From: Saprospiraceae bacterium
Lineage (GTDB): Bacteria > Bacteroidota > Bacteroidia > Chitinophagales > Saprospiraceae
DNA: 51,410 nt
Direction of reading: 5' to 3'
Assembly: GCA_016787545.1 (NCBI GenBank)
Contig: JAEUUS010000013.1
Span: 1 to 51,410 of the forward strand
The notes beneath the pieces are model-generated. The model had not been told where the DNA came from. It saw only the letters and a program-made list of their open reading frames with translations, and searched no databases. A program made the position numbers and the translations under genes. Position 1 is the stretch's first letter. Each line of letters starts with the position of its first letter. Shown piece after piece: positions 2,698 to 50,526 of this stretch.

Positions 2698-3020
2698 GCT
2701 AAGACACGAAGCGCTAAGACACGAAGACGCTAAGACACGAAGGCGCTAAGACACGAAGGCGCTAAGACACGAAGGCGCTAAGACACGAAGGCGCTAAGAC
2801 ACGAAGGGCCGGCTGAAAGCCGGCCCTTCGTGTCTTAGGTGGGAGAGTAGCGACCTTTGTCTTAGCGTCTTTGTGCCTTAGCGTCTTTGTGTCTTAGCGT
2901 CTTTGTGTCTTAGTGCCTTAGCGCCTTTGTGCCTTAGCGCCTTCGTGTCTTTGCGTCTTTGTGCCTATCTAATTGTCCCACACCTTTGTGTCTTCTTGCC
3001 TGACCCTTCGTGTCTTTCAA
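2698..3020. repeat. Inverted pair of tandem arrays around a perfect palindrome
   Basis: The left part (2698-2806) holds seven copies of aagacacgaag at spacings of 15, 16, 16, 16, 16 and 16 bp, nearly without variation. A perfect palindrome follows (2795-2837: 20-bp arms, 3-nt loop). The right part (2838-3020) contains the reverse-complement words, such as cttagcgtctttgtg, in about ten diverged copies. The array fills the gap between two convergent genes. The core could work as a bidirectional terminator. There are no unique spacers, so it is not a CRISPR array. Similar short-word arrays occur in other environmental genomes; their function is not known. Confidence 0.85.
2795..2837. terminator. 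20-bp palindrome between convergent genes, likely bidirectional terminator
   Basis: Left arm 2795-2814 and right arm 2818-2837 are exact reverse complements around the loop GAA. The inner half is very GC-rich (GGGCCGGCT/AGCCGGCCC). There is no clean T tract, so termination is inferred from the strength of the hairpin and from its place between converging genes. Confidence 0.5.
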
Positions 3021-3990: not shown

Positions 3991-6900
3991 TTAACGTTGA
4001 ATAAGCAAAAAGCCGGTGCGAGGTTCTGTATTTGAATCCAGCTTAATCCGGAAAAAATAAGTACCCGCAGGAAGTTCTTCGTTATTATAGGTTCCTCCCC
4101 AATCGTTTAGGTAAGGTTTGGCATGAAATACCACATCACCCCATTGATTAAAGATGGTTACTTCCAGATTTGCAGCGCCTTCACCCAAGGTACATTGATC
4201 AGGAATTTTAAACAGGTCATTGAAACCATCCGAGTTGGGCGTTATAATGGTTGGAATGAAGCACTCAGGAGCACCACCTACAGAAAAATTCACATTGGCA
4301 ATACTACAGGCGTCCGGACATTGCGTATTACAAATCCGGTAGGTCAGCACATCATTGCCCGTAAATCCTGAATTAGGGCGGTATACATAAACCCCCGTAG
4401 CAGGATTCTCAACTATGGTTCCATTCACCGGATGTGTGGTGATTACTACCGTAAAATTGTCCGGCAAATCATCATTGGATAACACGTTAAACTGCGCTGA
4501 AGATCCAAAATTTACACTTACATTATCCACAAACGCCGTTGGGAAAATCTCGTAATAAACTTCCAGCGTATCTTTATTGGAATTCAGATCGCAGGAGTCC
4601 CTATTAACTGTCCAAACGAAAATATTGGAACCTCCTACCAACCCACAAACGGTAGTAGTGTCATTAAAGCGATTGGTATACGTAACCATTGGATTATTCA
4701 GACAGGTCCATTCACCTGTTTCAAAGGGAGCCAAAGGAGAAACCGTCAGTACCGTGCAATCATCATTGCTGCAAATAAACTGGTTCGAACTGGTTTGAGG
4801 TTTTCCACTGTAAACATAAATGGTTACCGGATCAGAACTTACACCACATCCCGGATTGCTAATAACCCAATAAAACACAAAGTTTTGCCCAAGGCCGATA
4901 TTTCCACTGATGGTTGAATTAGGATCCAAAACATTATCGATTTGTATACCTAACCCGGGCTGCCACTGGGTCCACGCACCCGGTGTATTTACACCTTGTG
5001 TGGCATGAAGTTGAATGTTTGACGGATCGCAAACATATTGATCTTCACCGGCATCGGCAACTTCAGGGAATTGTGCCATAATTTCCACAGTATCCCTGCT
5101 GAAGTTCCTGCATTCTCCATTGGACAAACTCCAAACAAAGGTGTAGGTAGTAGCGGTATCAGTGCTCAAAAAAGATGCAACAGGCGAACCGGCATTATCA
5201 ATCGCCACCACAGGAGTACCGATCTGCGACCATAACCCATTCACCATTCCAGGCAATGGGTTTGGCAAAGCATTCAATACGATAGGCGTACTGTTACAGG
5301 CAGGGTGATTTAAACCGGCAAATGCGTTCACGCCTTCAGGTATGGTATCAAACCTAACCGTTACTACATTGGAATAAATGGACCTGCAATATGGTGTGTC
5401 TGGCGTACTGGCCACTACCCGGAATGAATGCGAGCCTGGACCCAATGCCAGCACCTGCGGCTCATTCAGGGAAAGGGTATTAATGGTTGAAGGGCCTTGA
5501 AGCACTATCCCGGAAGCAGCATCTTCCCAGGTGTATTCCATTCCACTTACAGGATTTGCAATATTCAGAAAAATACTAAAAGGCGCATCTACACAAATGG
5601 CCGGCGGAGGTGGAGCAATAACCGGGGTAACAGGCGTATGTACCACCGTTACCATCAGTGAGGTCTCTCCGGAGATGCATCCAAGTGCTTCTACGTGTAA
5701 TTTGTATTCACCAGCCATATTTTGTGTCACCGGACTTCTGGTTGGGTCTTCCGCCATACTTATAAAACCAGCAGGCCCGGTCCAGAAATAACTGACCATA
5801 GGAATTGTATTACTGTACAGGTTAAGCACACCCCCTTCACAAACCGGAGAGCTTGAGCTAATGACCGGTGTTGGCGGAATGGGGTTAACTGTTACTGTAA
5901 CACTATTGGATATACCTGATTGGCACAATGCATTGGCAGATATTGCCATGACAGTATAGTTACCTGAATGCCAGGTTTGGGCATTGGGTATAACCAGCGT
6001 GGGTACAAGCGTAGTGGTATCCGGCAGATTTCCCGGACGGTTCCACAAGTATGAAACGCCTGGTGTAGGGTTTCCAATGGTCAGCGTAATCGTAGCCCCT
6101 GCGCAAACAGGTTGCTGGGTTACGCTCAAGCTAGGTGTAACTGGCGGCGCCTGAATATTAATTTCAGTGGTGGCGGGCAATGACGGGCACCCGAAGGAGT
6201 CTTTTACTACCAGGGTATATTGACCATTAAAAGGCGTACAAACATCCGGGATCACCGGATTAGCCAATGTAGACGTTCCAAACGTCGGAGGACCAGTCCA
6301 CAAATAGGTATACGGCGTGTTGGGCGATGTGATACTGGCCATCAGCACGGCATCAGTAGTACCGTCGCAACATACAGGGGCATTGTTGCTGATAGAGCCG
6401 ATAGCCGGCGGCGTTACATTCGTAACCTGTACCGTAGAGGTATCAGCACAACCATAAGATGTTTTTCCAACCACCTGATAGATGCCGCTACTGCCGTTTG
6501 GCACAGTTATATTCTGTGTAAAATGCTGCGAACCATTTGGGAATGTCCAGCACCAGGTGAGTGGCACTTCAGAAGAAAATGTGGCGCTCAGTTGCAGAAG
6601 AGAATCTTTACAAATGGATGGACTCGCATTAGCCGTAACCATTGGGATGTCATGCACATCCAAACAAATCGGATCCGACTGGTTTGAAAAACAACCGTTT
6701 GCAAAAACTTCTACAGAATAACAACCCTCATTTTGGTTGGTAACTCCAGGTATAAGAAGACTATTGGTGGTGGTATTAATATTCACCGGGCCAGACGGCG
6801 TTGGAATGTTCCAAAGGTATTGGGCGGCATTGGGATGGTTGCTACATACCAATGTAACGTTTTGCCCGGCACAGGCATTGACGTTGCCCCCCAGAATTGG

Positions 6901-9900
6901 TTTGGCCGGTTTATTATTGATACTTACCATCACTGTATCAGGAACAGAAAAACACCCGTTTTGCTGTGTAACCAGAATATATTTCCCGGCATGTTGGCTG
7001 GCAATCATAATATTGGGCACCACCGGATTTTGATCTGTGCTGGTAAAACCCGACCCTGGAGGACCTGTCCAGAAATAGGTCAGCCCTCCTGTTGGAGGTG
7101 TCAATGATTGAAGTGATAAGGCATCTCCTTCGCACTTCAACTGCATCTCGGGCACAGCATCTGCCGGTGGCGTGGGATGCATGGTTATGGTAATGGAATT
7201 GGACAATGCCGTAGCACAACCGTTAGCAAAAACCTTGACGTAAAATGTATGGGTGCCTGGCGCCAGGTTATTAACCGTGAAGTTATTGACGAAGGTTTCA
7301 CTAATTTCTGTTGGAGTACCATTTACATCCTGTAGCCATTGGTAGCTAACATTCTGCCCCAGATAGGTACCTGTAGATAATTGTACGTTTTGGCCGGGGC
7401 AATAAGATGTCGGGATAGCATTCAGTGTTGGTGTAACTGACAATATGGCCAACTGTACCTGGATACAAGCAGAAGAAGTACACCCTCCAGCGCCAGTAAT
7501 GGTCACACAATAGGTATCATTGTGAATGGCCATTGCAGTAGAATCCACTACCGGATTGGCATTTAGACCGCTATAAAAGAAATTATTATTTAAGCCTTTC
7601 CAGGTATAAAAATAAGGACCTGGAGAGGGTGGATTTGTAAAAACTTGCAGGATGCCGTTTTCGCAAACAGGCGTAAAACTGGGCGACGGGGGTTCATTAA
7701 AGATCCCTATTACAGTTTTGCAGGTTGATGAATTCTCGGAGGTGTCGGTAACGGAAAGGGTTACCATAGGACTCATTCCCGCCTGACTGCACGTGAAAAT
7801 ATTGGGGGATACAGAATACGTCAGATTGGGTGTTGGCGTACAATTGTCAAAACTACCGTTGTTAATCTGAAAAGGCTTTATGGTATCCGGAGCGCCAGAT
7901 GGATCAACCTGTAAAATGTAAGCAGACAGACACAATGCTTTAGGCTTCACCGTATCTCTCACTGTAACTGAAAAACTGGTCATACCTACCAAACCAGCAT
8001 TGTCTGTGGCTTGGTACATCACGTTATAATTGCCCGCTGAGAGCGTGTCTTTGGTGATATTTCCTGTGATGGATCCGGTAGAGACGACTTGATTTGCTGC
8101 ATTTTTGATGGAATAGTTCACAATGGCGTAGCTGTATTCCAACACTACCTGCACCTGACTCACACCATCGGTTCCGTTTGGCAGCAACGGGCCGCAACTC
8201 CCAATCGAGTTCGTATCCCGGTTGGTTTCCAAATAAAAGGATGTACTTCCAAAAGGCGGATTTGACGCCCAGGCATTGATATTTGCAGCAGAGACCGGAA
8301 TAGCAGTTTCCCAAAATCCAATGCATTCATTTGCCATGGCTCCCTGGGTGGTAGAGCCCAGCGGATTGCCTTGTTCATCATACACATTGAAGAATTCTCC
8401 CGCCCCTGCGTTGTCACCTTTATGTCTGATCCGCAAAATACCATTGCCCACCGCATTGGGAATTAATCCAGAAAGTTGCACGGTGATATCTGATGCAATG
8501 ATGCCCAAATCAGGGTCATTGGCAAAATGTAAAGGCAGCACTGCAGAAGCCAGACTGAAACTGGCCGACATAGCACAGTTTTCCGTAATAGCAGGAAAAG
8601 GCAGCATAACTACCCCATCACAATTGTTTTGACCAGTAAATACCGTAATATTGGCAGGAGCCGCAAGGCTTGGTGGCTCTGTATCATTCACGGTGATTTG
8701 CATCGAAGCCGTGGAGGAGTTCCCAACACAATCTGTAGCTGTGTACACGATGGTATGAACACCGGTACCCAGCAGTTCCGGCAAAGAGGGTGGATAATTC
8801 TGTTGTGGCCCTCCATCAACGGAATATTGCAATAAAATGGGCACATCAGAACTTTCTCTTGCATAAGAAAGTTGGGCCGTAACCTTGCCATTGGGGCAGA
8901 TTGGGTTGCAAGCCGTTGGCCCTGAGCCATTGGGCACCATAGAAAAGGTGGCCGTGCCGTCAGTCAGCCACTTGTTGACCTGAATAGGACTCAACACAAA
9001 GTTGGTTGTTTTGTCACCACACTGCGAGTCTGTATCTGCCGTCCCCAGCAGATTCCCGTTTTCATCAAACACATTAAAATCCTCCGTAGCACCTTCTGCA
9101 TCTGCATTCTCAATGATAGCTTTCAAAGTTACTGCGCCTACTGCCGGAGAAAACGGCGGTGTTTTGGTTGTCGACAGACTGAAAGTCATGGCCGCAACCG
9201 GAACCACGAAAGGCGACCCCGGACCTGATGCTACCAAGGGCTTCAGGTCAGACAATAGCACAAATTCTCCCTGGCTACTACAAACATCCGTAACCGACAT
9301 CGGGCCGGGAATCAGGATTTCTGCCCCACAGATCCCCGGATCGTTTTCCAAAACCAAAGGCTGTTGAGGGATGATTTCAGGAGGAGTTGTATCTTCAATC
9401 TGAATAAGTTGTGTATACGTTCTGGCATTTCCACATTGATCCGTTGCCGTCCATTCGCGTTTTACGATGTAATCCGTCCAATGTTCGCAGGAAGTGGTAT
9501 CCGGATTTCTGATTTCGGTTTCTGTTAGTATAATACTCACCGGTCCCAGACAATTATCCTGCGCATTTAAGGCCGCATTGGCCGGTGGTGCAGGTATAGC
9601 ATTACATTCCACCGTAATATTTGCCGGCACACTCAGCAGTTGAGGCGCTACGGTGTCCACCACATGCACCAACTGATCAAAGGGGGTTTTGTTACCACAC
9701 ACATCCTCCGCACTCCAATGTACCCGAATGGTATATTGATCTGCACATGGTCCTGGGTCAATGGTTTGACCAGAACTCACTGGTGGATCAGTTGGGCCGC
9801 TACAGGCATCAACAGCCAACGGTGCGGGCGCCGGGAATGGCGTTAGTGCGCTACACAGCGCTGTAGTATCCAGCACACCTCCTGGCACCGGCCCGAGGTT

Positions 9901-11964
9901 GTCGATAACAGAAATTACTTGTGTGGCAGTTTGTGTATTGCCGCATTCATCTGTTGCTGTGAAAGTACGTACAATGTTGTAGGTGTAATGCCCGCAAACG
10001 CCAGGATCCGGATTCTGAAAAGATTGAGTAGTGGTAGTAATAGAAACAACCGGGCTGCACACGTCTGTTGCCATGATGTTTATGCCCATCACCGGAACAA
10101 GCGGTAACATAAAGGTATCGCAGCGGAAGGTTAGTGGACCCGGAACCAGCGTAAATACCGGTTTGGTGGTGTCGCGTACAAAAATGTTTTGTACCATATT
10201 GGTTACGTTCCCGCAATCATCGGTAGCCGTCCAGGTCGTTTCCACCGTATAGGAGCCATCACAAATACTGTCTTTATACACCCTGGCAAAGGTAATGGCT
10301 ACGTTAGCATCACAATTATCTGTCACAGTTGCTGCCGGCACATTAGGCAATGGGTTTGGGCAATACACGGTGATATCCGGTTGGAGTCCGGTAAACACCG
10401 GCTTTAGTGTATCAAAAATACTCCAGCGAAGCGTAATGGTATTGGAATTATTACAGTCATCCGTTGCTTTAAAAGTTATGTCTGTGTACCAGCTGCAATT
10501 ATTTGCCTGAACGGTTGGGTATGGCCCTGAGTTGAAGATACCATCGCCGGTTTGCCCGGTGGAGGTAACAAAAGTAAAGTTGGTCCAGGTGAACCCTGAG
10601 CAATCATCCGTTACTATAGCATTACCGTGTGCATTGATCCAGGATTGCAAGGAGGTTTGATCATTACCTCCACCGCATTGTTCGGCTACATTGATACCCG
10701 TAATGGTTGGCGCAAGTGTATCGATTGCCCCAAAGTCGGCATCTCCCATGGCCGTTTCATTCCCACAGGCATCTTTCACAAAGAAATTGACGGTAATTTT
10801 GGCATGAACTTTCTGGTAGCTTTTGGTGCCAATAAACCGGGTGTTGCAACCACTCGCAAAATTAGCCTGAAAGGCGGCTACTACCTGAGCTGAGTCCACA
10901 ACTGTGGTTCCGATTTTCATCGAATAGGACAGCGGTCCCGAGCAGGTATCCTTTGCCTGGGTATATCCTTTTTTGTTGATCCACTCGCCTAATTTGACAA
11001 ACTCATTATCGGTCTTGGAGCAATAGGCTACCGTATCCTTAGGTGGGATAATCACGACCGGACCAGCATTATCGGAGGTAGTGAAGACTACGTCAACATT
11101 CAGCTGGAACATGCAGTTGTCAACAGCCTTAAACCGCACCGTCAGCGGCGCCTTACATCCTGGCGGGAAAGTCGCTGGACCGTTATTACTCAGCGAAAAT
11201 ATCCCGGAAGGGTCTGTAGCACTAAAAATGGCAGTCTGGGCGGCAAGCCAGGCCGGATAAGCCGAAGCTAATTGTTCACAAGGAGCCGAACCATCCTGAG
11301 GATAACCCGTAATTAAAGGAGGAAGTGAATCCTTGTAAATGATGATGGTTTGGGTAAAAACAGAAGTGTTGTTGTTGGCATCAGTTGCCTTCCAGGTTCT
11401 GGTAAAGGTTCCAGATTGGCATAAAGGTGGCGGAGTGGTCTGGTAAAAAGTATCATTCACCACAGGCGTACAATTGTCCATCACAGGCAGAGCCACTTGC
11501 GGTGGAACCGCTGCGCTGGAACTGAACTCAAGGGTATCCAGCACGCCGGTCAGGTCGAAAGCAGGAGGCAGGTTATCCACGAAATTGATGAAATACTCGT
11601 AGGTATTAGAATGTCCCTGATCATCTGCTACATCCCAGAAAACATGGGCTACGGAGCCGGCCGTGAACAATCCGTTGTACGTAAAGCCCGATAAAACGGG
11701 ATTGAACTGCGACAGGATGATATTGGCGCCAACGGTTGAGGATACTACCGGATTGGGCACATTGCCTTGCAGCATGGATGTGCAACCCTGATCAACATAA
11801 AGGGTGGTAGGACCGTTGTAGCTGAAATTAAAAAACGCCGGCTGTGCCAGAAGCCATGCCGTTGGGAGTAAAAAAAGACAAAGACCTGCAATCCAAGACT
11901 TTGCCCGCATAGGGTTGCGTAACCGGTTTGTCATACGGACGGGTTGGGTTTCATAGGGCGGCAT
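3991..11964 (-). CDS. Giant secreted adhesin with HYR/Ig-like repeats and CHU_C sorting domain
   Basis: 2657 residues with a signal peptide around residues 19-41 (ending LLAQ). Met19 (11910) or Met11 (11934) are alternative starts; the AT-rich DNA begins just upstream of 11964. The N-terminal 1400 residues hold many HYR-like modules with recurring VTDNC/ATDxCGN motifs and paired cysteines. Residues about 1450-2300 are PKD/Ig-like modules (patterns such as PVCEGG, YxWTGP, NSVTVTV). A cadherin/VCBS-like module (about 2465-2560, NDDLPDN, GNDVLTYRICN) precedes the C-terminal CHU_C domain (ITPNSDGFNDLFKI to GTYFFRIKLD, 2565-2657), the type B sorting signal for T9SS. It is probably displayed on or released from the surface for adhesion or gliding. 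The sprF-like gene follows by 14 bp. Confidence 0.93.
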   Translation of the reverse strand: MPPYETQPVRMTNRLRNPMRAKSWIAGLCLFLLPTAWLLAQPAFFNFSYNGPTTLYVDQGCTSMLQGNVPNPVVSSTVGANIILSQFNPVLSGFTYNGLFTAGSVAHVFWDVADDQGHSNTYEYFINFVDNLPPAFDLTGVLDTLEFSSSAAVPPQVALPVMDNCTPVVNDTFYQTTPPPLCQSGTFTRTWKATDANNNTSVFTQTIIIYKDSLPPLITGYPQDGSAPCEQLASAYPAWLAAQTAIFSATDPSGIFSLSNNGPATFPPGCKAPLTVRFKAVDNCMFQLNVDVVFTTSDNAGPVVIIPPKDTVAYCSKTDNEFVKLGEWINKKGYTQAKDTCSGPLSYSMKIGTTVVDSAQVVAAFQANFASGCNTRFIGTKSYQKVHAKITVNFFVKDACGNETAMGDADFGAIDTLAPTITGINVAEQCGGGNDQTSLQSWINAHGNAIVTDDCSGFTWTNFTFVTSTGQTGDGIFNSGPYPTVQANNCSWYTDITFKATDDCNNSNTITLRWSIFDTLKPVFTGLQPDITVYCPNPLPNVPAATVTDNCDANVAITFARVYKDSICDGSYTVETTWTATDDCGNVTNMVQNIFVRDTTKPVFTLVPGPLTFRCDTFMLPLVPVMGINIMATDVCSPVVSITTTTQSFQNPDPGVCGHYTYNIVRTFTATDECGNTQTATQVISVIDNLGPVPGGVLDTTALCSALTPFPAPAPLAVDACSGPTDPPVSSGQTIDPGPCADQYTIRVHWSAEDVCGNKTPFDQLVHVVDTVAPQLLSVPANITVECNAIPAPPANAALNAQDNCLGPVSIILTETEIRNPDTTSCEHWTDYIVKREWTATDQCGNARTYTQLIQIEDTTPPEIIPQQPLVLENDPGICGAEILIPGPMSVTDVCSSQGEFVLLSDLKPLVASGPGSPFVVPVAAMTFSLSTTKTPPFSPAVGAVTLKAIIENADAEGATEDFNVFDENGNLLGTADTDSQCGDKTTNFVLSPIQVNKWLTDGTATFSMVPNGSGPTACNPICPNGKVTAQLSYARESSDVPILLQYSVDGGPQQNYPPSLPELLGTGVHTIVYTATDCVGNSSTASMQITVNDTEPPSLAAPANITVFTGQNNCDGVVMLPFPAITENCAMSASFSLASAVLPLHFANDPDLGIIASDITVQLSGLIPNAVGNGILRIRHKGDNAGAGEFFNVYDEQGNPLGSTTQGAMANECIGFWETAIPVSAANINAWASNPPFGSTSFYLETNRDTNSIGSCGPLLPNGTDGVSQVQVVLEYSYAIVNYSIKNAANQVVSTGSITGNITKDTLSAGNYNVMYQATDNAGLVGMTSFSVTVRDTVKPKALCLSAYILQVDPSGAPDTIKPFQINNGSFDNCTPTPNLTYSVSPNIFTCSQAGMSPMVTLSVTDTSENSSTCKTVIGIFNEPPSPSFTPVCENGILQVFTNPPSPGPYFYTWKGLNNNFFYSGLNANPVVDSTAMAIHNDTYCVTITGAGGCTSSACIQVQLAILSVTPTLNAIPTSYCPGQNVQLSTGTYLGQNVSYQWLQDVNGTPTEISETFVNNFTVNNLAPGTHTFYVKVFANGCATALSNSITITMHPTPPADAVPEMQLKCEGDALSLQSLTPPTGGLTYFWTGPPGSGFTSTDQNPVVPNIMIASQHAGKYILVTQQNGCFSVPDTVMVSINNKPAKPILGGNVNACAGQNVTLVCSNHPNAAQYLWNIPTPSGPVNINTTTNSLLIPGVTNQNEGCYSVEVFANGCFSNQSDPICLDVHDIPMVTANASPSICKDSLLQLSATFSSEVPLTWCWTFPNGSQHFTQNITVPNGSSGIYQVVGKTSYGCADTSTVQVTNVTPPAIGSISNNAPVCCDGTTDAVLMASITSPNTPYTYLWTGPPTFGTSTLANPVIPDVCTPFNGQYTLVVKDSFGCPSLPATTEINIQAPPVTPSLSVTQQPVCAGATITLTIGNPTPGVSYLWNRPGNLPDTTTLVPTLVIPNAQTWHSGNYTVMAISANALCQSGISNSVTVTVNPIPPTPVISSSSPVCEGGVLNLYSNTIPMVSYFWTGPAGFISMAEDPTRSPVTQNMAGEYKLHVEALGCISGETSLMVTVVHTPVTPVIAPPPPAICVDAPFSIFLNIANPVSGMEYTWEDAASGIVLQGPSTINTLSLNEPQVLALGPGSHSFRVVASTPDTPYCRSIYSNVVTVRFDTIPEGVNAFAGLNHPACNSTPIVLNALPNPLPGMVNGLWSQIGTPVVAIDNAGSPVASFLSTDTATTYTFVWSLSNGECRNFSRDTVEIMAQFPEVADAGEDQYVCDPSNIQLHATQGVNTPGAWTQWQPGLGIQIDNVLDPNSTISGNIGLGQNFVFYWVISNPGCGVSSDPVTIYVYSGKPQTSSNQFICSNDDCTVLTVSPLAPFETGEWTCLNNPMVTYTNRFNDTTTVCGLVGGSNIFVWTVNRDSCDLNSNKDTLEVYYEIFPTAFVDNVSVNFGSSAQFNVLSNDDLPDNFTVVITTHPVNGTIVENPATGVYVYRPNSGFTGNDVLTYRICNTQCPDACSIANVNFSVGGAPECFIPTIITPNSDGFNDLFKIPDQCTLGEGAANLEVTIFNQWGDVVFHAKPYLNDWGGTYNNEELPAGTYFFRIKLDSNTEPRTGFLLIQR

Positions 11965-17739: not shown

Positions 17740-18822
17740 ATGTCCAACACTTTCGGCCAACTTTTCAAAGTGACGACTTTCGGGGAATCCCATGGCGAAG
17801 CCATTGGATGCGTTGTAGATGGCTGCCCTGCCGGTTTGGTCCTTGACCTGAATTTTATTCAACAGGAACTGGATCGTCGCCGACCCGGACAGAGTGCTAT
17901 TGTAACCCAGCGAAAGGAGTCGGATACCGTTCAGGTTTTAAGTGGCCTGTTTGAAGGTAAAACCACAGGTACACCCATAGCCTTGATCATTCCGAATGAG
18001 GATCAAAAAAGCAAGGATTACGATCATCTGGCCCATGCCTTTCGGCCAAGCCATGCCGATTACACCTGGCAAGTAAAATTTGGCCACAGAGATTTCCGGG
18101 GAGGGGGCCGGAGCAGCGCCAGAGAAACGGCTGCGAGAGTGGCTGCAGGCGCTATCGCTAAATTATTATTAAAGCAGTTTGGTGTTGACATTCAGGCTTT
18201 TGTAAGTCAGGTAGGGCATTTAGAGCTCAAAAAAAACTACACGGCACTGAGTCTATCGCAAACAGAGCAAAATGATGTTCGTTGTCCGGATCCGGAAATG
18301 GCCCAAAAAATGATCAATCTGATCAAAAAAATCCGGAAAGCCGGAGATACCATTGGCGGTGTGGTGAGCTGCGTGGTAAAAGGCTGCCCGGCTGGATTAG
18401 GAGAACCGGTATTTGATAAACTTCATGCAGATTTGGGTAAAGCCATGTTGAGTATCAATGCAGCCAAGGGATTTGAATATGGATCCGGATTTGCGGGGGT
18501 CGCCATGCGTGGCAGCGAGCATAATGATTTATTTGTACAGCCTCATCCCAATGCCCCACCCACTACCCTATCCAATCATTCAGGTGGCATACAGGGAGGC
18601 ATTTCCAATGGCATGGATATTTATTTCCGGGTTGCCTTCAAACCAGTTGCCACGATTATGCAAGACCAGGAAACCATTAATGCACAGGCTGAAAAAGTGG
18701 TACTTAAAGGAAAAGGACGCCATGATCCCTGCGTAGTTCCCAGAGCAGTTCCCATTGTTGAAGCAATGGCAGCCCTGGTACTGGCAGACCACCTGCTTCG
18801 CAGCAGAGCTAACAAGGTGTAG
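17740..18822 (+). CDS. aroC: Chorismate synthase
   Basis: 360 residues from the ATG at 17740 ([19 protein letters not shown]). An in-frame TTG 27 bp upstream is not needed. The protein has the family signatures GESHG, the [19 protein letters not shown]-type FMN/EPSP-binding segment, and the late [13 protein letters not shown]. It catalyses the last shikimate-pathway step, 5-enolpyruvylshikimate-3-phosphate to chorismate, and needs reduced FMN. It is cytoplasmic and of typical length. The threonine aldolase gene follows on the same strand, separated by a 241-bp gap filled with two low-complexity repeats. No other aro genes are nearby. Confidence 0.97.
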
Positions 18823-18872
18823 ATTTGCGATTTGCGATTTACGATTTGGGATGTACGATTTGGGATTTGCGA
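18823..18872 (+). repeat. Short gatttg-word tandem repeat after aroC
   Basis: Starting right after the aroC stop codon, the words gatttgc, gatttac and gatttggg recur with a 7-8 bp (sometimes 15 bp) period. Two copies read TACGATTTG (18840-18848 and 18854-18862), which resembles a TAnnTTTG promoter element with one extra base. TTG words lie at about the right distance upstream, so a promoter role for ltaE is possible but unproven. Confidence 0.6.
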
Positions 18873-18885
18873 CTGCTCCTTCAGG

Positions 18886-19061
18886 TTCATCACATTGCCC
18901 ACATTCATCACATTCACCACATTTCCCACATTCACCACATTTCCCACATTCACCACATTTCCCACATTCACCACATTTCCCACATTCAACACATTTCCCA
19001 CATTCACCACATTTCCCACATTCACCACATTTCCCACATTCAACACATTTCCCACATTCAA
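18886..19061 (+). repeat. G-poor 9/18-bp tandem array ending at the ltaE start codon
   Basis: About 19 hemi-units of 9 bp alternate between ccacattca-like and ccacatttc-like words, giving an 18-bp repeat. The coding strand contains almost no G. The array ends two bases before the ATG at 19064. Because the period is a multiple of three, all frames stay open through it, which creates spurious reading frames on both strands. Its place suggests an unstructured leader or a spacer whose length could vary by slippage. Confidence 0.9.
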
Positions 19062-19063
19062 TT

Positions 19064-20080
19064 ATGGTTAACCTGATTTCGGATACTGTTACCAAGCCTA
19101 CTCCTGGTATGTTGCAGGCTATGTGGGCCGCAGAAGTTGGAGATGATGTTTTTAAGGAGGATCCCACGGCAATAGCACTGGAGCATTTATGCGCGGAAAG
19201 GTTTGGTATGGAGGCGGCATTGTTTTGTCCAAGTGGAACTATGGCCAATCAAATCGCGCTGAAGGTGCATACGCGCCCCTTGGACGAAGTAATTTGCGAT
19301 GAAATGAGCCATATTTACCAATACGAAGTAGGAGGTTATGCCTTTCACTCCGGTATTGGCGTAAATCTGCTAAAAGGCGAAAATGGAATATTAACCGCCG
19401 AAATGGTGGAAAATGCCATCAAACCACCCTTCGACTGGCTACCCAAAAGCACATTGGTGGTCATTGAAAACACCTGCAATAAAGGTGGTGGAAGTATGTA
19501 TGATTTGGAAACCATCCGGCAGATAGGCGCAGTATGCAGGAAGCATGGTATGGCCTATCACATGGATGGCGCCCGATTATTTAATGCGCTGGTAGAAACA
19601 GGCAATACTCCGGAGGAAATCGGTGCAGAGATGGACAGCATAAGCATTTGTCTTTCCAAAGGACTTGGCGCACCGGTAGGCTCTGTGCTATTAGGCACTC
19701 AGACTTTTATTAAAGAAGCCAGAAGGGTTAGAAAAGCTATGGGCGGCGGGATGCGGCAGGTAGGATATTTAGCTGCTGCAGGTATTTATGCGCTCAATCA
19801 TCACGTAACCAGGCTAAGGGAAGATCATCAGAATGCACGAACGCTTGCCACCATTCTGGAGACATTACCCTGGGTATGCAATATCCGGCCGGTTCAAACC
19901 AATATTTTGATTTTTGACCTGAAGCCTCCACTAACGCCAGCCATATATCTGGAAAAACTCAAACAAAATGGTATTCTGGCATCTGCTTTTGGTCCCCAAA
20001 CCATCCGGTTTGTTACCCATCTGGATATTACGCAACCCATGATGGATCATGTAGGCCGGATATTGCATCAGATAAAATGA
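19064..20080 (+). CDS. ltaE: Low-specificity L-threonine aldolase
   Basis: 338 residues from the ATG at 19064 (MVNLISDTVTKPTPGMLQAM). A longer frame reading through the upstream repeat array is rejected, because homology-like sequence starts exactly here. It is a fold type I PLP enzyme that cleaves L-threonine or L-allo-threonine to glycine and acetaldehyde. Visible signatures are the DTVTKPTPGM opening, GDDVFKEDPTA, the PSGTMANQIA phosphate-binding turn, HMDGARLFNA (PLP-binding Asp) and SKGLGAPVGS with the Schiff-base Lys. It is cytoplasmic. The stop lies 5 bp from that of the convergent lipoprotein gene. Confidence 0.94.
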   Translation: MVNLISDTVTKPTPGMLQAMWAAEVGDDVFKEDPTAIALEHLCAERFGMEAALFCPSGTMANQIALKVHTRPLDEVICDEMSHIYQYEVGGYAFHSGIGVNLLKGENGILTAEMVENAIKPPFDWLPKSTLVVIENTCNKGGGSMYDLETIRQIGAVCRKHGMAYHMDGARLFNALVETGNTPEEIGAEMDSISICLSKGLGAPVGSVLLGTQTFIKEARRVRKAMGGGMRQVGYLAAAGIYALNHHVTRLREDHQNARTLATILETLPWVCNIRPVQTNILIFDLKPPLTPAIYLEKLKQNGILASAFGPQTIRFVTHLDITQPMMDHVGRILHQIK

Positions 20081-29121: not shown

Positions 29122-31182
29122 ATGCAAAACAAGTTAATCCTGCTGTGCACTCTGCTTTTGTTGTCCATTTCCCTGTCAGCCCAGGGATCAGGTTCTTCCA
29201 AAAGCAAATCCAAAGACCGGTTTCGGGAAAAGGATGATCGTCGTTACCCAGTACAGATTGTGAATGCCAAAGAACTCAATCAACCAGGCACGGATTATGC
29301 TCCGATGTATTACGACAATGGCATTCTGTTCGTTTCGGCGCGCGGCAAAAAAGGGCCTCGCAATGAGCGCACCGGAGAAGCTTTTGAAGCGCATTATTTA
29401 TCCACTTTCGACAGGCTTGGTGCTTTGGTCGTTCCGGAGGTATTTGAATTCAATGCTGGCAAAAAATCGGATTTCCATGAAGGCCCGGTTGCTTTTACCC
29501 GTGATTTCAAAATGGCATTTGTGACTCGTAACAACAACGACAATGGCATATTACGTGGCGGGAAAGGCGGCAGAGCTTCCATGAAAATTTACCAGATGGA
29601 ATACGGGTTTCCAGACTGGACGCCGCCCATTGATTTGCCTTTCAATAGCGATGACTACTCTTGTATGCATCCCAGTCTCAGTGTAGATGAAAAATGGTTA
29701 TTTTTTGCTTCCGATATGCCCGGTGGCAGCGGAGGTTTTGATTTGTATGCTGTGGAGCGTCTGGGTAACAATAAATGGGGAGAACCGGTGAACCTTGGGC
29801 CGGCAATCAATACTGAAAAACAGGATTTATTCCCCTTCATGAGTGAATATGGCTCCTTGTTTTTTGCATCCAATGGCCGTTCCAACAGCATGGGTGGCAT
29901 GGACATCTATTTTGTAAACAATCCGCTCAAAAAGGAAGATGAAAAGGAAGTCGTAAACCTTGGAGAACCATTTAATACGCCTGAGGATGACTACAGTTTC
30001 ATCACCGATCCGGATGGGCACAACGGTTATTTTGCCAGTACGCGCAAGGAAAAAAACTATGGCAAAACGGACATTTATTCATTTGTTGCACCAAGGGGGC
30101 TGGAAGGCACCGGAAAACCGGAAACCAACACAGCCCGGATAACGGTGATTGATGACAAAACCGGACTCCCCTTACAAGGTGCAGAAATCCGCATTTTCCA
30201 ACCAACGGATGATGGATTCATTTCCGGCAATAACGACTTTTACGACTTTGATTATGAGCCAGATCCGGACAGGCCGGACGTTTTTTCCTTTAAATTAGTG
30301 CGAAAAGATGCCAAAGACATGGGCAAACCGGATTTATACTCCAATGCCGAGGGCGGGGCACAAACAGATTTTACCCGTTATCGCAATTACCTGATTATGG
30401 TTAGCGCCAAAGGATACACTTCCCGTGATCGTTTTATGGTGGTTGATTCTGATGATGAATTAACCCTTTACTTTAAAATGAAAGAATCGCCTCCCTGTCT
30501 GCGTGCCGGAGGTATCGTGCTAACCACAGAACACAATACGCGTATTGCCAATGCGAGTGTCAGGTTTGAGCACCGTTCGAGCGGGGCGGTTGAAACTGCC
30601 CGCACCACACGCAACGGCGAATTTGATGTTTGCCTCTCACGGGAAGGTGAGTGGATTGCCAAGGTGGAAAAGAACGGTTTCCGTGCTGAAACTTTCCGTG
30701 TAAATGCCTCAAAAGGCGGCAACTCCAACGATGAAGTGCGACTAAAACCGCTAACAGAGGGTCTGACGGTGGCAGAAACAATGCCGCTGGCAAACGGATT
30801 GCTGGAAGGCTCCATGTTCATCCTTGACAAGATATTTTATGAAAAAGACAAAGCGACTTTGAATCAGGGCGCTGTTAGGCACCTGGAAGCCTGGTTGGAA
30901 CATATGCGCAATTATCCGGAAATGGAAATTGAGATTACAGCGCATACGGATGTACGTGGCGATGAACGCATGAACATGGAACTGACAGAACAACGCGCTA
31001 AAAATGCCAAGATATTTCTGGTTGCCAAAGGCATTGAAGAAACCCGCATCAAAGCCACGGGCAAAGGCGAGTTACAGCCGCGCAATCATTGCGTAGAAAG
31101 TGCAGAATGTTCTGATGAGGAACATGAGCAAAACAACCGTTTGGAAATCAAGATCAAACGACTCGGTCCGCCAAGAACGTGA
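29122..31182 (+). CDS. OmpA-family protein with PD40 beta-propeller and CRD domains
   Basis: 686 residues with an ordinary signal peptide (1-20, LSAQ) and no lipobox. A basic linker (GSSKSKSKDRFREKDDRR) precedes a PD40 propeller (about 45-335; HPSLSVDEKWLFFASDM, LFPFMSEYGSLFFASNG). Two carboxypeptidase-regulatory-like folds follow (about 340-460 and 465-555). A C-terminal OmpA domain (about 575-686, IFYEKDKATLNQGA, TAHTDVRGDERMNMELTEQRAKNAK) binds peptidoglycan. It is a paralogue of the PorE-like protein at 20789-22852 but lacks the TPR part and the lipid anchor. It is probably a periplasmic link between the outer membrane and the cell wall; a T9SS role is possible. An inverted repeat array begins 4 bp after the stop. 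Confidence 0.87.
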   Translation: MQNKLILLCTLLLLSISLSAQGSGSSKSKSKDRFREKDDRRYPVQIVNAKELNQPGTDYAPMYYDNGILFVSARGKKGPRNERTGEAFEAHYLSTFDRLGALVVPEVFEFNAGKKSDFHEGPVAFTRDFKMAFVTRNNNDNGILRGGKGGRASMKIYQMEYGFPDWTPPIDLPFNSDDYSCMHPSLSVDEKWLFFASDMPGGSGGFDLYAVERLGNNKWGEPVNLGPAINTEKQDLFPFMSEYGSLFFASNGRSNSMGGMDIYFVNNPLKKEDEKEVVNLGEPFNTPEDDYSFITDPDGHNGYFASTRKEKNYGKTDIYSFVAPRGLEGTGKPETNTARITVIDDKTGLPLQGAEIRIFQPTDDGFISGNNDFYDFDYEPDPDRPDVFSFKLVRKDAKDMGKPDLYSNAEGGAQTDFTRYRNYLIMVSAKGYTSRDRFMVVDSDDELTLYFKMKESPPCLRAGGIVLTTEHNTRIANASVRFEHRSSGAVETARTTRNGEFDVCLSREGEWIAKVEKNGFRAETFRVNASKGGNSNDEVRLKPLTEGLTVAETMPLANGLLEGSMFILDKIFYEKDKATLNQGAVRHLEAWLEHMRNYPEMEIEITAHTDVRGDERMNMELTEQRAKNAKIFLVAKGIEETRIKATGKGELQPRNHCVESAECSDEEHEQNNRLEIKIKRLGPPRT

Positions 31183-31186
31183 TCGG

Positions 31187-31296
31187 GGACGTTGGACTAT
31201 TGGACGTTGGACTATTGGACGTTGGACTATTGGCCATACAGTCCAATGTCCAAAAGTCTAACATCTAATGTCCAACAGTCCAATAGTCCAACGTCC
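31187..31296. repeat. Inverted pair of 15-bp tandem arrays
   Basis: Three perfect, abutting copies of ggacgttggactatt (31187-31231) are followed after a few bases by a diverged array of the opposite strand. The array ends with an exact reverse complement of the unit, aatagtccaacgtcc (31282-31296). Between them are partial words (gtccaatgtcc, gtctaacatc). In RNA this would form a long imperfect hairpin just after the OmpA gene. The layout is the same as in the array at 2698-3020, but the word is different. Confidence 0.88.
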
Positions 31297-41612: not shown

Positions 41613-43244
41613 TTATTTTATAAAAATATCCATTGCGGTGTTCAAACAAGCGGCCGTTGTTAGTCCGCCTTTTCGGGCCAACATGACCCCAAAACGGGTA
41701 TGCAGGATACCATCTTTACTATGGGCATCCGGGTTGATACTGATTTTAATCCCCATGGACATAGCTTTGGGTATCAGCGCCCAGTCAATGTCCAGGCGCC
41801 GTGGGTGCGCATTGAGTTCAATGGCTACATTGTGTTTTAAGCAGGCTTCCATGATGGCATCCCAATCCAAAGGGTACCCTTCCCTACTCAACAAGAGTCG
41901 ACCCGTTGGGTGGCCCAAAATAGTGGTGGAGGGATGTTCAATGGCTCTCAAAATACGTTCCGTGGCTTTTTCCTGCGTCATACGCAAATTGGAGTGCACA
42001 GATGCAATAACGAAATCAAATCGCTCCAGCAGGGCATCATCGTAATCCAGGGAGCCGTCGTTCAGGATATCGCTTTCAATGCCTTTGTAAATTTTAAAGG
42101 GCGCCAATTCCTCATTCAGGCGGTCAATTTCCTCCATTTGAGCCAAAACGCGGTCTGGCTTCAATCCGTTGGCATAAAAGGCAGATTGGCTGTGATCCGT
42201 CATGCCAATGTACGCATAGCCCAGCGAACGGGTGTACTCGCACATTTCACGCAGGGAATGCAGGCCATCACTCCAGGTGCTGTGTACGTGAAGGATTCCG
42301 CGAATATCGGCGTCTGTAATCAAGTTTGCAGGCGTGCCTGAGTGCAAAAACGAAGCAGATTCCCGCAATTCCGGCACAACAAAAGCAGCATTTGCTTTAT
42401 CAAACACCTGGGTTTCCTGCTCCAGTCCTTTGAAATCCAGTCCCGGGTGTGCCTGAACAAAATTTTCCAGAAATTCGGGTGAACCCGTGTATCGGAACAG
42501 TTTGGAGCCCCATTCTCCGGGCTGGCAACTGATCACGCGTATACGCGCGCCTTCGCCCCTGCGCAGGAAAACTTCGCCATTCTCGCCTGTTTCCCGACTG
42601 AATTCGCCTCCTTCAGCCAGTATAAGTTGTGCAGGATCAGCAGTGGTGAGTACGTCAATGGACTCCACCACCTGGCTTCTGCGGCGCACTTCGCCAACAG
42701 GTTCTGCCAAAACGCCGGGAAAACCATTGAGCAACAATTGGCAGGCCGCTTCTGCTTCAGCCAGGGCGGCATCCAGGTGCATTTTACCCCTGCTGCGGAA
42801 GAAATAATCCAGCTTATGCTTCAGGTCTTCCTGGGTTTTCAGTCCAAATCCTTTGTATTCAATCAACCTGTTTTCATTACAGGCATACCAGAGCTCGCCC
42901 GGGTTTTCAATGCCCATTTCCTGCCAAACCTGCCGCACTTTCTTGGGTCCGAAGCCACCTATTTCCAGCATTTCCCGCACTCCGGAGGGCGTTTTTTCCC
43001 TGAATTTTTCCAACGTATCCATTTTCCCTGTTTCCAGCAACTCACGGATTTTAGCCGCAATGGCCGGACCAACTCCTTTAATGGCTTTAATCTCGGCATC
43101 GCTCAATTCCGCCAAAGAGCTATCGAGTTTGCGCAAGGTGAGATAGGCGCTTGCATAAGACTTAATGCGGAAGGAATCCTCCTCATGCAGTTCCATCAGA
43201 TTGGCAAGCTCGTCAAAAGAAAGGGCGATTTGTTTGTTGGTCAT
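41613..43244 (-). CDS. PolX-type protein: degenerate polymerase palm fused to intact PHP domain
   Basis: 543 residues from the ATG at 43244 (MTNKQIALSFDELANLM). A longer frame through the upstream array would add Ser-Asn-Pro repeats and is rejected. Helix-hairpin-helix parts (about 1-150; IKGVGPAIAAKI, IGGFGPKKV) are followed by a pol-beta-like palm (about 155-290). In the palm, the usual GS-x-RR motif reads GEVRRR (184-189). The first catalytic Asp is Ser195 (SIDV) and the third is lost (ARIR, 233-236). The PHP phosphoesterase domain (about 316-540) keeps its metal motifs HVHSTWSDG, TDHSQS, GIESDI, ASVHSN, GHPTGR and NPDAHS. It is therefore probably a nuclease/phosphoesterase, perhaps in DNA repair, without polymerase activity. 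Confidence 0.9.
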   Translation of the reverse strand: MTNKQIALSFDELANLMELHEEDSFRIKSYASAYLTLRKLDSSLAELSDAEIKAIKGVGPAIAAKIRELLETGKMDTLEKFREKTPSGVREMLEIGGFGPKKVRQVWQEMGIENPGELWYACNENRLIEYKGFGLKTQEDLKHKLDYFFRSRGKMHLDAALAEAEAACQLLLNGFPGVLAEPVGEVRRRSQVVESIDVLTTADPAQLILAEGGEFSRETGENGEVFLRRGEGARIRVISCQPGEWGSKLFRYTGSPEFLENFVQAHPGLDFKGLEQETQVFDKANAAFVVPELRESASFLHSGTPANLITDADIRGILHVHSTWSDGLHSLREMCEYTRSLGYAYIGMTDHSQSAFYANGLKPDRVLAQMEEIDRLNEELAPFKIYKGIESDILNDGSLDYDDALLERFDFVIASVHSNLRMTQEKATERILRAIEHPSTTILGHPTGRLLLSREGYPLDWDAIMEACLKHNVAIELNAHPRRLDIDWALIPKAMSMGIKISINPDAHSKDGILHTRFGVMLARKGGLTTAACLNTAMDIFIK

Positions 43245-43246
43245 GG

Positions 43247-43325
43247 TGGGTGAGGATGGGGGTGAGGGGTTTGAAGGGTTAGAGGGGTTTGAAGGGTTTG
43301 AGGGGTTTGAGGGGGCAGGGGGCGG
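43247..43325 (-). repeat. 9-bp tandem array upstream of the PolX start codon
   Basis: On the minus strand the words aaacccctc and aaacccttc repeat with a 9-bp period (best copies 43265-43311), then degenerate C-rich sequence continues to the ATG at 43244. The coding strand is almost free of G. A -7 element at 43332-43339 would place the transcription start at the outer edge of the array, so the array would be the whole leader. Confidence 0.82.
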
Positions 43326-43331
43326 CGGGCA

Positions 43332-43339
43332 CAAAACTA
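43332..43339 (-). promoter_or_regulatory. Promoter -7 element (TAGTTTTG) upstream of polX
   Basis: Exact TAnnTTTG match on the minus strand, placed between the ABC-gene terminator and the repeat array. No ideal TTG was found 17-23 bp upstream, so support is partial. Confidence 0.42.
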
Positions 43340-43420: not shown

Positions 43421-44143
43421 TTATCCTTCTGTGGGAGCAGGCTCGTTGGCCAGACTAATGATGTTTGGATTTTGAATATCTGATTCAATCAGTCCATCGC
43501 GCAATCGGACAATTCGGTGGGCGTGTTGGGCAATATCTTGTTCGTGTGTAACAAGGATTACTGTGTTGCCAGCCTTGTGGATTTGCTCAAAGAGTCCCAT
43601 AATCTCGTAACTGGTTTTGGTATCAAGGTTACCGGTAGGTTCATCGGCCAGGATAATCGCTGGGTTATTCACCAGGGCACGCGCTACAGCAACACGTTGG
43701 CGCTGACCACCGGAAAGTTCGTTGGGTTTATGCATTACGCGATCACCAAGGCCTACCGACTCCAGTGTTTTTCGGGCGCGTTCGAGTCGCTCTTCTTTTC
43801 CAACGCCGGCATATACCAGAGGCAGGGCTACATTTTCCAAAGCGCTCAATCGGGGCATAAGGTTAAAGGTTTGGAACACAAACCCAATTTCCTTATTGCG
43901 TACTTCCGCCAAATCACTGTCATCCATGGTACTAACTTCCGTGCCATTCAACCAATATTCCCCTTTTGTTGGGGAGTCGAGACACCCGATGAGGTTCATG
44001 AGTGTGGATTTACCGCTACCGGAAGGCCCCATGAGCGCTACATATTCGTTCTTCCGAATATCCAAACTTACATCCTTAAGGGCCTCTACTTTTTCGTGGC
44101 CCATGATGTAGGTTTTGTTCAAATTTTTGATGGATATGAGCAT
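43421..44143 (-). CDS. ABC transporter ATP-binding protein, LolD/MacB type
   Basis: 240 residues with all ABC motifs: Walker [10 protein letters not shown] (about 38-46), Q-loop [14 protein letters not shown], signature [15 protein letters not shown], Walker [13 protein letters not shown] and switch His in VTHEQD. The GxxGSGKST...NLIGCLD...FNL pattern is that of the LolD/MacB/FtsE group, whose partner permeases work in lipoprotein release or efflux. No permease gene is encoded in the window, so its partner must be elsewhere. A 55-residue membrane protein gene lies upstream on the same strand, separated by a G-poor repeat array that ends at this start codon. A terminator follows the gene. Confidence 0.93.
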
Positions 44144-44144
44144 A

Positions 44145-44236
44145 AATGTGGGGAATGGGGTTAATGTGGGGAATGGGGTTAATGTGGGGAATGGGGTTAA
44201 TGTGGGGAATGTGGGGAATGGGGGAATGTGAGGAAT
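44145..44236 (-). repeat. 18-bp tandem array ending at the ABC gene start codon
   Basis: On the minus strand the unit aaccccattccccacatt repeats about four times, followed by partial copies. The array has 9-bp sub-periodicity and no G in its core. The last copy ends one base before the ATG at 44143. The unit shares the word cccacatt with the ltaE array and has the same placement directly before a start codon. Confidence 0.9.
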
Positions 44237-44243
44237 GGGGGTG

Positions 44244-44411
44244 TTATTTCTTTTTACGGAAAATAAGTCCGAAAAGGAATACGAATAATGCGATTGTTGC
44301 GGTAACCATTTGTTTCAGGATTTGTGGAAAAAAGAACCACACAACGACCAATGCTGCCAGGGTTGCAATGACTGCGATGGTGATCCAGGAAAATTTCGAG
44401 GTATTTGCCAT
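44244..44411 (-). CDS. 55-residue two-helix membrane protein
   Basis: A short gene not obvious at normal length cutoffs: 55 residues starting [20 protein letters not shown]. It has two hydrophobic helices (about 9-29 and 34-51) separated by PQILKQ, and a basic tail FRKKK. This is a convincing small integral membrane protein with a positive C-terminus. It is the first gene of the minus-strand unit leading to the ABC ATPase. It could be a small accessory subunit, but no family is recognised. The TAA stop lies 8 bp ahead of the array. Confidence 0.65.
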
Positions 44412-50124: not shown

Positions 50125-50132
50125 GGTTGGGA

Positions 50133-50255
50133 TATTTAGGTCATTGGGGAGGTCATTGGGGTCATTTTGGTCATTTGGGGTCATTTTGGTCATTTGGGGT
50201 CATTTGGGGTCATTTTGGTCATTTGGGTCATTTGGGTCATTTGGGGTCATTTTAT
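50133..50255 (+). repeat. G/T-rich tandem array (gtcatttggg words)
   Basis: About ten copies of the 10-11-bp words gtcattttg and gtcatttgggg, starting 9 bp after the SDR stop codon. Its reverse complement forms the array at 50408-50516, so the two halves would pair in RNA across the element between them. Confidence 0.88.
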
Positions 50256-50261
50256 CAAAAT

Positions 50262-50395
50262 GGGTTGTCATCTCACGTGGATTGTCATCCAGAGCGCAGC
50301 GAAGGACCTACACAAGCCCGGTTTCCGAAATGCCCTGGCCAAATTTACCCGAATAGCCTGGCTTGTGTAGGTCCCGGTTCCCGGGATGACAACCC
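50262..50395. mobile_element. Small non-coding inverted-repeat element (MITE-like)
   Basis: 134 bp with perfect terminal inverted repeats GGGTTGTCAT (50262-50271) / ATGACAACCC (50386-50395). A second, inner perfect 15-bp pair is ggacctacacaagcc (50304-50318) / ggcttgtgtaggtcc (50360-50374). It contains the word gagcgcagcgaaggacc, of a type seen in interspersed repeats of many genomes. It encodes no protein. The element sits between the two opposing low-complexity arrays, which suggests insertion into a former larger array. Mobility is inferred. Confidence 0.6.
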
Positions 50396-50407
50396 ACGTT
50401 GATTAAA

Positions 50408-50516
50408 CGACATTAATGACCCAAATAATGACAATCCTAATGACCCCCAAATGACATAAAATGACCTAAAATGACCCCTAAATGACCCCTAAATGCCCCC
50501 TAAATAACCTCAATGA
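50408..50516 (+). repeat. C/A-rich tandem array (aatgacccc words)
   Basis: About ten degenerate copies of aatgacccc/aatgacctaa with an 10-11-bp period. They are the reverse complement of the array at 50133-50255. The array ends about 10 bases before the ATG of the histidine kinase gene. The coding strand is G-poor, with G only in the word atgac. Confidence 0.85.
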
Positions 50517-50526
50517 CTAGTAACCC

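Follow-up and report, generated by a model that had tools for sequence, protein, structure and literature searches.

Start-adjacent G-poor tandem arrays in a Saprospiraceae genome as probable arms of polarised intergenic palindromes

The short tandemly repeated repetitive sequences of cyanobacteria are intergenic arrays of heptamers, and we know of no case in which they pair into polarised palindromes. Heptamer arrays between genes are also present in the Saprospiraceae genome considered here, and the two are alike as far as the general description of the cyanobacterial repeats goes. Another type of repeat, the TAACTGA direct repeat, is found in Beggiatoaceae, Cyanobacteria and some Bacteroidetes (MacGregor 2015, PMC4679880). 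For example, in Flexibacter litoralis 12 of the 14 TAACTGA sets point to the start codon, and one is reversed directly after a stop (PMC4679880). A role in translational regulation was proposed in that work. REPs, which are dispersed, intergenic and hairpin-forming, are 20-40 bp (PMC3733652). The leaders next to which such repeats may lie have properties of their own in this phylum: Bacteroidetes mRNAs are without Shine-Dalgarno sites, and low structure and an A-rich context favour initiation (PMC6847099).

The Saprospiraceae arrays resemble the TAACTGA repeats in having short tandem units that end a few nucleotides before the starts of unrelated genes, mostly in one orientation, and the set reversed after a stop in F. 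litoralis corresponds to a mirror pattern that is also seen here. The window, 51,410 nucleotides, is the whole of contig C560 in a genome of 5.48 Mb and 741 contigs, to which MAGs of Saprospiraceae and other Bacteroidota are the closest named relatives; the largest open reading frame listed in it codes for 2657 aa (3991-11964, minus strand). A sequence-only reading of this window had described four G-poor arrays, before the genes for ltaE, an ABC ATPase, PolX and a histidine kinase, and base counts and an array search find all four of them. The last three gene names are those of that reading, predicted from sequence; ltaE is a predicted identity too, for a protein whose relatives were found by sequence comparison. 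The gene upstream of ltaE is presumably aroC (chorismate synthase), as judged from its C-terminal sequence. The arrays are the following.

18886-19061, plus strand: CACATT-family tandem array in the ltaE leader, a solitary C-rich right-side array between aroC and ltaE
18822-18872, plus strand: G/T-rich heptamer array (GATTTGC type), a left-side array of a family other than CACATT
44145-44241, minus strand: CACATT-family array in the ABC ATPase leader, 9/18-bp unit, 0 G in 97 bases
43245-43325, minus strand: TCAAACCCC-type array directly upstream of the PolX start, with a 9-bp unit at 43263-43314 and 2 G in its 81 bases
50415-50513, plus strand: AATGACCCC array, the C-rich right arm upstream of the histidine kinase gene, 11/22-bp unit, 8 G in 99 bases

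The period of 9 bp that had been read in three of the four is correct, the histidine kinase array (11/22 bp) being the one that differs, and the word cccacatt is indeed common to the ltaE and ABC ATPase arrays. In the ltaE array an 18-bp unit, CACATTCACCACATTTCC (2 x 9), is repeated in 9.4 copies over 18891-19060 with 94% matches. This array ends 3 bp upstream of the ATG at 19064, and has a single G in 176 bases (18886-19061); no G is found over 18915-19063. The aroC-ltaE gap is absent from the gaps of the window listed with an inverted repeat score of at least 40; the GATTTGC-type array sits in it directly at the aroC stop, 5' of the ltaE array. The ABC ATPase array fills the spacer between the stop of a 55-aa open reading frame (44244-44411, below the size limit of our home-made gene caller) and the ATG at 44143. 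The PolX ATG at 43244 directly adjoins its array. The histidine kinase array is less regular (68-81% matches) and lies 13 bp before the ATG at 50527; this is the least certain of the four starts, the gene caller having chosen 50575.

Read by eye, a TAnnTTTG-like sequence is present on the minus strand at 43332-43339, immediately upstream of the PolX array, and a terminator-like hairpin with a T-run precedes it. TAnnTTTG is a promoter motif of Bacteroidota. Given this candidate just upstream, the PolX array may be a transcribed leader.

The same window holds G-rich inverted partners, or mirror arrays, that the sequence-only reading had missed.

50151-50252, plus strand: GGTCATTTGGGG array, the G-rich left arm after the stop at 50124, inverted partner of 50415-50513
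50253-50414, no strand assigned: GTCATTT element core, in which GGACCTACACAAGCC pairs with GGCTTGTGTAGGTCC to give an inner hairpin; the genome has related copies at other sites
2698-2807, plus strand: GCTAAGACACGAAGGC array with G 33 and C 27, the left arm of an inverted pair whose flanking genes are convergent
2861-2966, plus strand: right arm CTTAGCGTCTTTGTGC, G 26, C 27, nearly no GC skew, partner of 2698-2807
31187-31233, plus strand: GGACGTTGGACTATT array that follows the stop at 31182, the left arm of another inverted pair
31238-31296, plus strand: right arm of ACAGTCCA type, partner of 31187-31233

The RNA of the spacer that ends at the histidine kinase start (50125-50526) is predicted to fold as one long hairpin of -189 kcal/mol, with a z of -10.8 and none of 100 shuffles as good.

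The genome-wide pattern was examined in 80 contigs (536,715 bp) of the same Saprospiraceae MAG, chosen by number and not by content, in steps of 12 for the first 60 and in uneven steps for the other 20. Contigs fetched earlier for array hits (e.g., C112, C580 and C616) were not repeated, so array-bearing contigs are under-represented. The count covers 84 of 111 arrays; those inside genes or at the ends of contigs, and those in gaps of <60 or >1200 bp, were left out. An array was scored as following the rule of polarity if it is G-rich at the left end of its gap or C-rich at the right end. This is the case for 72 of the 84 intergenic arrays of the 80 contigs (binomial-tested): 29/30 in convergent gaps, 34/42 in co-directional gaps and 9/12 in divergent gaps. 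Seen on the coding strand, arrays whose nearest boundary is a start are C-rich in 28 of 33 cases, and those closest to a stop are G-rich in 44 of 51. If each gap has a single vote, which avoids counting the two arms of one palindrome twice, 42/54 gaps agree with the rule throughout, 8 go against it throughout and 4 are mixed. Convergent gaps counted in this way give 17/18 by the rule and 1 mixed; the divergent array-bearing gaps, with 5/8 by the rule and 3 against, are the weakest class.

Distances to gene edges were compared with random placement in the same gaps. Starts have 17 arrays at a distance of 15 bp or less, whereas random placements average 7.6 (0/2000 with as many), for starts called by the home-made program, which penalises array codons and may bias start distances though not stop distances. 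Where the start is the nearest boundary and lies within 15 bp, 16 arrays divide into 8 that are G-poor (G <=6% on the coding strand), none that is C-poor and 8 that are neither; the array-codon penalty is independent of orientation. C is above G on the coding strand in 21/22 arrays within 40 nt of a start. The G-poor orientation at starts is thus not chance, and the opposite orientation is not equally common there.

These counts bear on the proposal first made for the four leaders, that a G-poor array is a device of the start codon, selected as an unstructured leader of variable length that tunes translation. Several further observations are in its favour. The predicted RNA fold energy is 0 kcal/mol for 18915-19063 and likewise for the ABC ATPase array, which bears out the idea that these two CACATT leaders are unstructured. 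In Flavobacterium johnsoniae the level of initiation is adjusted by structure and an A-rich context close to the start (PMC6847099), and the TAACTGA repeats of Beggiatoaceae most often end 1 nt before starts (PMC4679880). However, the enrichment is mirrored at the other end of the gene, with 35 arrays within 15 bp of a stop against 10.7 expected, which differs from a repeat of TAACTGA type found mainly at starts. Nearness to starts above chance therefore holds for these arrays, and its specificity does not; stops are enriched more strongly. Of the 35 arrays at stops, 9 are C-poor, 2 G-poor and 24 neither, and the two G-poor ones fill co-directional gaps and are also 2 and 20 bp from a start. 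Convergent gaps contain no start codon, yet the polarity is cleanest there. Because stops and convergent gaps show this mirror image, and start codons are not the key to the arrays, the start device was dropped as the main account; we consider it unlikely. The four genes, in addition, share no function.

The ltaE locus of relatives, the clearest single example among the loci compared, also argues against a start device. The aroC tail precedes ltaE in 4/4 related species inspected, with spacers of 241 bp in the present genome, 150 bp in G029, 68 bp in G026 and 27 bp in G021. The G029 spacer has a CACATT array, with ACGATGG words in place of GATTTGC in its left part, and the G026 spacer has three CACATT units. 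Among these four species the 27-bp spacer of G021 is without an array. G021 is a near relative, the closest searched genome by PolX (90% identity), and by ltaE it is about as close as G029 (84% and 85%). Tuning of translation by array length is weakened by this spacer, and the ltaE array appears dispensable, to judge from the sequences compared. At most 7 G in the last 100 nt before ltaE are found in 3/30 loci (the present one, G029 and G023), and the low-G leader of G023 belongs to another array family. The spacer with the ABC ATPase array is not aligned to G021, though both flanks align; the PolX array lies inside a single alignment to that genome.

Partner arms are common in the sample as a whole. 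A complementary partner is present in the same gap for 51/84 arrays: 25/30 in convergent, 20/42 in co-directional and 6/12 in divergent gaps. Long inverted repeats are found in 27/40 convergent, 33/116 co-directional and 6/46 divergent gaps (convergent versus divergent, p 2e-7). The ranking convergent > co-directional > divergent is the same in the two length classes compared for the present genome and the genus together, with 18/29, 21/105 and 0/36 gaps of 60-199 bp and 15/19, 16/47 and 4/26 gaps of 200-399 bp. This enrichment is possibly mere tolerance, because convergent gaps need no promoter.

With arms split at the centre of the palindrome, 49 of the 66 inverted repeats have a G-rich 5' arm and a C-rich 3' arm (G5/C3), 11 are C5/G3 and 6 are neutral. 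Without gene calling the figures for 75 inverted repeats are 57, 9 and 9. The 96 inverted repeats of the present genome and the genus were grouped by shared 9-mers into 42 clusters, of which 30 are G5, 6 are C5 and 6 are neutral, so that 30/36 polar clusters are G5 (binomial 7e-5). The clustering is single-linkage, and several families have run together in the three largest clusters, which have 22, 18 and 12 members. The second largest is mixed, with 11 G5 and 6 C5 among its 18. That clusters agree in polarity does not prove that they descend independently, and clusters of shared 9-mers may share ancestry. In one minority family of opposite polarity (AACCACAAAGTCACAAAGGACACAAA type; L085, L197, L199 and L220) the 5' arm is C-rich and the arms are A-rich.

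The usual element is therefore G5/C3, with arms that often nearly reach the flanking genes. Most arrays are arms of palindromes or share the same polarity, and many are flush with gene edges. We conclude, with moderate confidence, that the start-adjacent G-poor arrays are mostly C-rich 3' arms, whole or left over, of intergenic palindromic tandem-repeat elements of the genus. Solitary arrays, such as that of ltaE, would be remnants of palindromes.

The arrangement follows from geometry. A palindrome is the same on both strands, so a G-rich arm comes after the stop and a C-rich arm before the start in either direction of insertion; polarity is a fixed trait of the element, for which there is no wrong direction. 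A family with a G-rich arm reading outward would be expected to spoil leaders and to vanish from co-directional and divergent gaps. Families with C-rich outward arms would survive, and their polarity in convergent gaps would be the same by geometry. Tolerance is the likely cause of the prevailing polarity, since leaders in this genome avoid G and should stay unstructured for translation without Shine-Dalgarno sites. Composition in array-free gaps (60 contigs and the window) agrees with this. The last 10 nt before a start have 14% G and 27% C for 69 co-directional starts, and 11% G and 25% C for 68 divergent starts. The first 10 nt after 69 co-directional stops have 22% G and 24% C, with a skew near zero; the 28 convergent stops have a mild G excess (skew +0.14), and the stop side is thus not neutral. 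Families that are C-rich outward may be tolerated beside starts because leaders avoid G even without arrays and the palindrome cannot be flipped. The hairpin in a convergent gap may also halt read-through from both sides, and from the sequences a role of the elements in termination or insulation is plausible.

Several results stand against the palindrome account. Solitary arrays without a partner arm are 33 of the 84, and 26 of these 33 are still by the rule, so palindromy alone is insufficient unless they are remnants. A C5/G3 minority exists (6/36 polar clusters). The rule is weakest in divergent gaps, where the leader idea would lead one to expect it. A leader constraint acting as the sole cause should deplete the minor base more strongly in gaps that hold a start. 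This expectation was rejected: the depletion is seen in 18/54 arrays of such gaps and in 6/30 arrays of convergent gaps, a difference that is not significant (p 0.22).

The genus provides a further comparison, in 16 stretches from eight genomes. Inverted repeats are present in 30/114 gaps, and 22 are G5, 5 C5 and 3 neutral (18, 8 and 4 of 30 without gene calling). Arrays are by the rule in 20/24 cases; in convergent gaps this is so for only 5/8, which is another point against the palindrome account. Within 15 bp of starts 2 genus arrays are G-poor and 2 neither, and within 15 bp of stops 7 are C-poor and 3 neither. Four extra stretches chosen for array hits were kept apart; they have 10/11 arrays by the rule and inverted repeats that are 5 G5, 0 C5 and 2 neutral. 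The genus thus follows the same trend in polarity, less cleanly. In 20 stretches from other families of the order an inverted repeat is found in 2/87 gaps, one of each polarity. Both of these lie in convergent gaps, of which there are just 8; the contrast therefore depends on the remaining 79 gaps and on density, which is 2 in 254 kb for the other families versus 75 in 537 kb for the present genome and 30 in 292 kb for the genus.

A variant of the explanation makes selection the direct cause, with a strand rule in the genus by which repeats are G-rich where they are met leaving a gene and C-rich and G-poor where they are met entering one. Unrelated families would be filtered to one polarity, the outward arm serving as an unstructured, R-loop-free leader and the inward arm as a barrier to read-through. 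We hold this as a tentative possibility.

The elements could instead be dispersed repeats of a MITE- or REPIN-like kind, neutral or selfish, growing by slippage into whatever intergenic space is free, with a polarity that is an accident of few ancestral families. Dispersed homologous copies are indeed present. The element at 50140-50520 has 148 matching segments on 36 contigs of its own genome, among 40/119 candidates scored, a number that includes the element itself and both strands, so that copies are counted more than once; many matches also occur in G021, among the matches listed. In ten GTCATTT stretches that were read, the core hairpin is common to four and similar in one, and five have arms alone. 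This element thus has dispersed copies with a common core, as a MITE would. Its core hairpin is repeated in a row at a spacing of about 180 bp in C296:8958-10077 and C447:1599-2322 of the same genome (with one larger step in the latter), and such rows resemble a tandem array of cores. Four ACGCGGAT stretches have a different core, a GCTGCCTTCGGCAG hairpin followed by T-rich sequence, and no common core is seen in five CACATT elements read on contigs chosen for hits.

The CACATT word is patchy, with a match in 9/60 genomes, the present one included, and more than 10 matches only in this genome and one other. A 19-base pattern from the ltaE array has 114 matches in the genome (79 forward and 35 reverse) at <=1 mismatch, overlapping units being counted singly; the reversed pattern, as a control, has 1. 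CACATT arrays also lie at or near contig ends (C524:6-96, C536:1-46 and C13:106-160). The assembly may have been broken by such arrays, in which case array counts are lower bounds. Most of the repeats lie in gaps with few constraints, as neutral repeats would. Against neutrality, the polarity across 30 of 36 polar clusters is shared by many clusters for one accident, if their ancestry is not shared. Neutral spread is in our view possible and somewhat doubtful.

A bidirectional, Rho-assisted terminator was considered as well. RNA at Rho loading sites is typically unstructured, rich in C and poor in G. On this reading the G-rich arm and core would be followed by such a site before the next gene, and read-through and antisense transcription would be stopped. 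The composition of the arrays matches, the genome encodes a Rho RNA-binding domain, inverted repeats are commonest between convergent genes, and no gap class is rich in U-tract terminators. With a Rho site so close to a start, however, the downstream gene in co-directional gaps would be endangered, and the C-rich arm would be hidden in the folded hairpin. We regard this mechanism as improbable.

Intrinsic terminators are like these elements in being intergenic hairpins that are commonest where two stops face each other, and the ACGCGGAT stretches, with their hairpin and T-rich sequence, add to the likeness. In L058, L065 and L108 of that family the inner hairpin has a T-run on one strand; in L058 and L065 the opposite strand has a similar hairpin too, an arrangement like that of a bidirectional terminator. 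By a simple, home-made test for a hairpin plus U-tract, terminators are rare at stop ends with inverted repeats (3/33 co-directional and 2/54 convergent). Without inverted repeats the signal is present in 6/83 co-directional and 3/26 convergent cases, and in 41/1956 coding segments. Since U-tracts are rare with or without inverted repeats, the known intrinsic mechanism is unsupported for most elements, which by the same simple test lack a U-tract and are far longer than intrinsic terminators. Placement of promoters was also tried as an account of the arrays. Upstream of 208 starts TAnnTTTG has a peak at 25-49 nt, with 24 sense versus 13 antisense occurrences, a weak signal, and it is found anywhere in the gap for 4/22 near-start arrays; no claim is made for it.

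Returning to the polarised palindromes, these differ from each of the described systems. TAACTGA is one fixed heptamer, and the Saprospiraceae genome has many unit families; TAACTGA is not seen, by eye, among the consensus units listed for the arrays. For the main genome of the TAACTGA work a single inverted repeat is reported (PMC4679880), in contrast to the majority of Saprospiraceae arrays that have a partner arm. The change from G-rich to C-rich across the gap is likewise a feature of the Saprospiraceae arrays. REPs, REPINs and BIMEs are similarly intergenic, dispersed and hairpin-forming. The single arms of the inverted repeats are from 15 to 315 bases long, and they exceed 40 bases in 44/66 cases in the present genome and 20/30 in the genus, and many are tandem arrays, unlike REPs; the shorter ones could be of REP size. 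The Saprospiraceae arrays are thus a variant of known intergenic repeats that falls outside the TAACTGA, REP and intrinsic-terminator families. Polarised inverted tandem arrays were not found in the titles and abstract openings of the literature searched, which leaves their absence from it unproven.

The data suggest that stops and partner arms deserve inspection in TAACTGA systems too. For the Saprospiraceae, four odd leaders have become a rule that can be tested genome-wide, in which repeat families of different sequence mostly take one polarity relative to gene edges. If that polarity is neutral, it still explains the arrays and is a caution against calling repeats regulatory because they adjoin a start. 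If selection is its cause, the repeats would be a natural assay of what leaders and 3' flanks require in an organism that translates without Shine-Dalgarno pairing.
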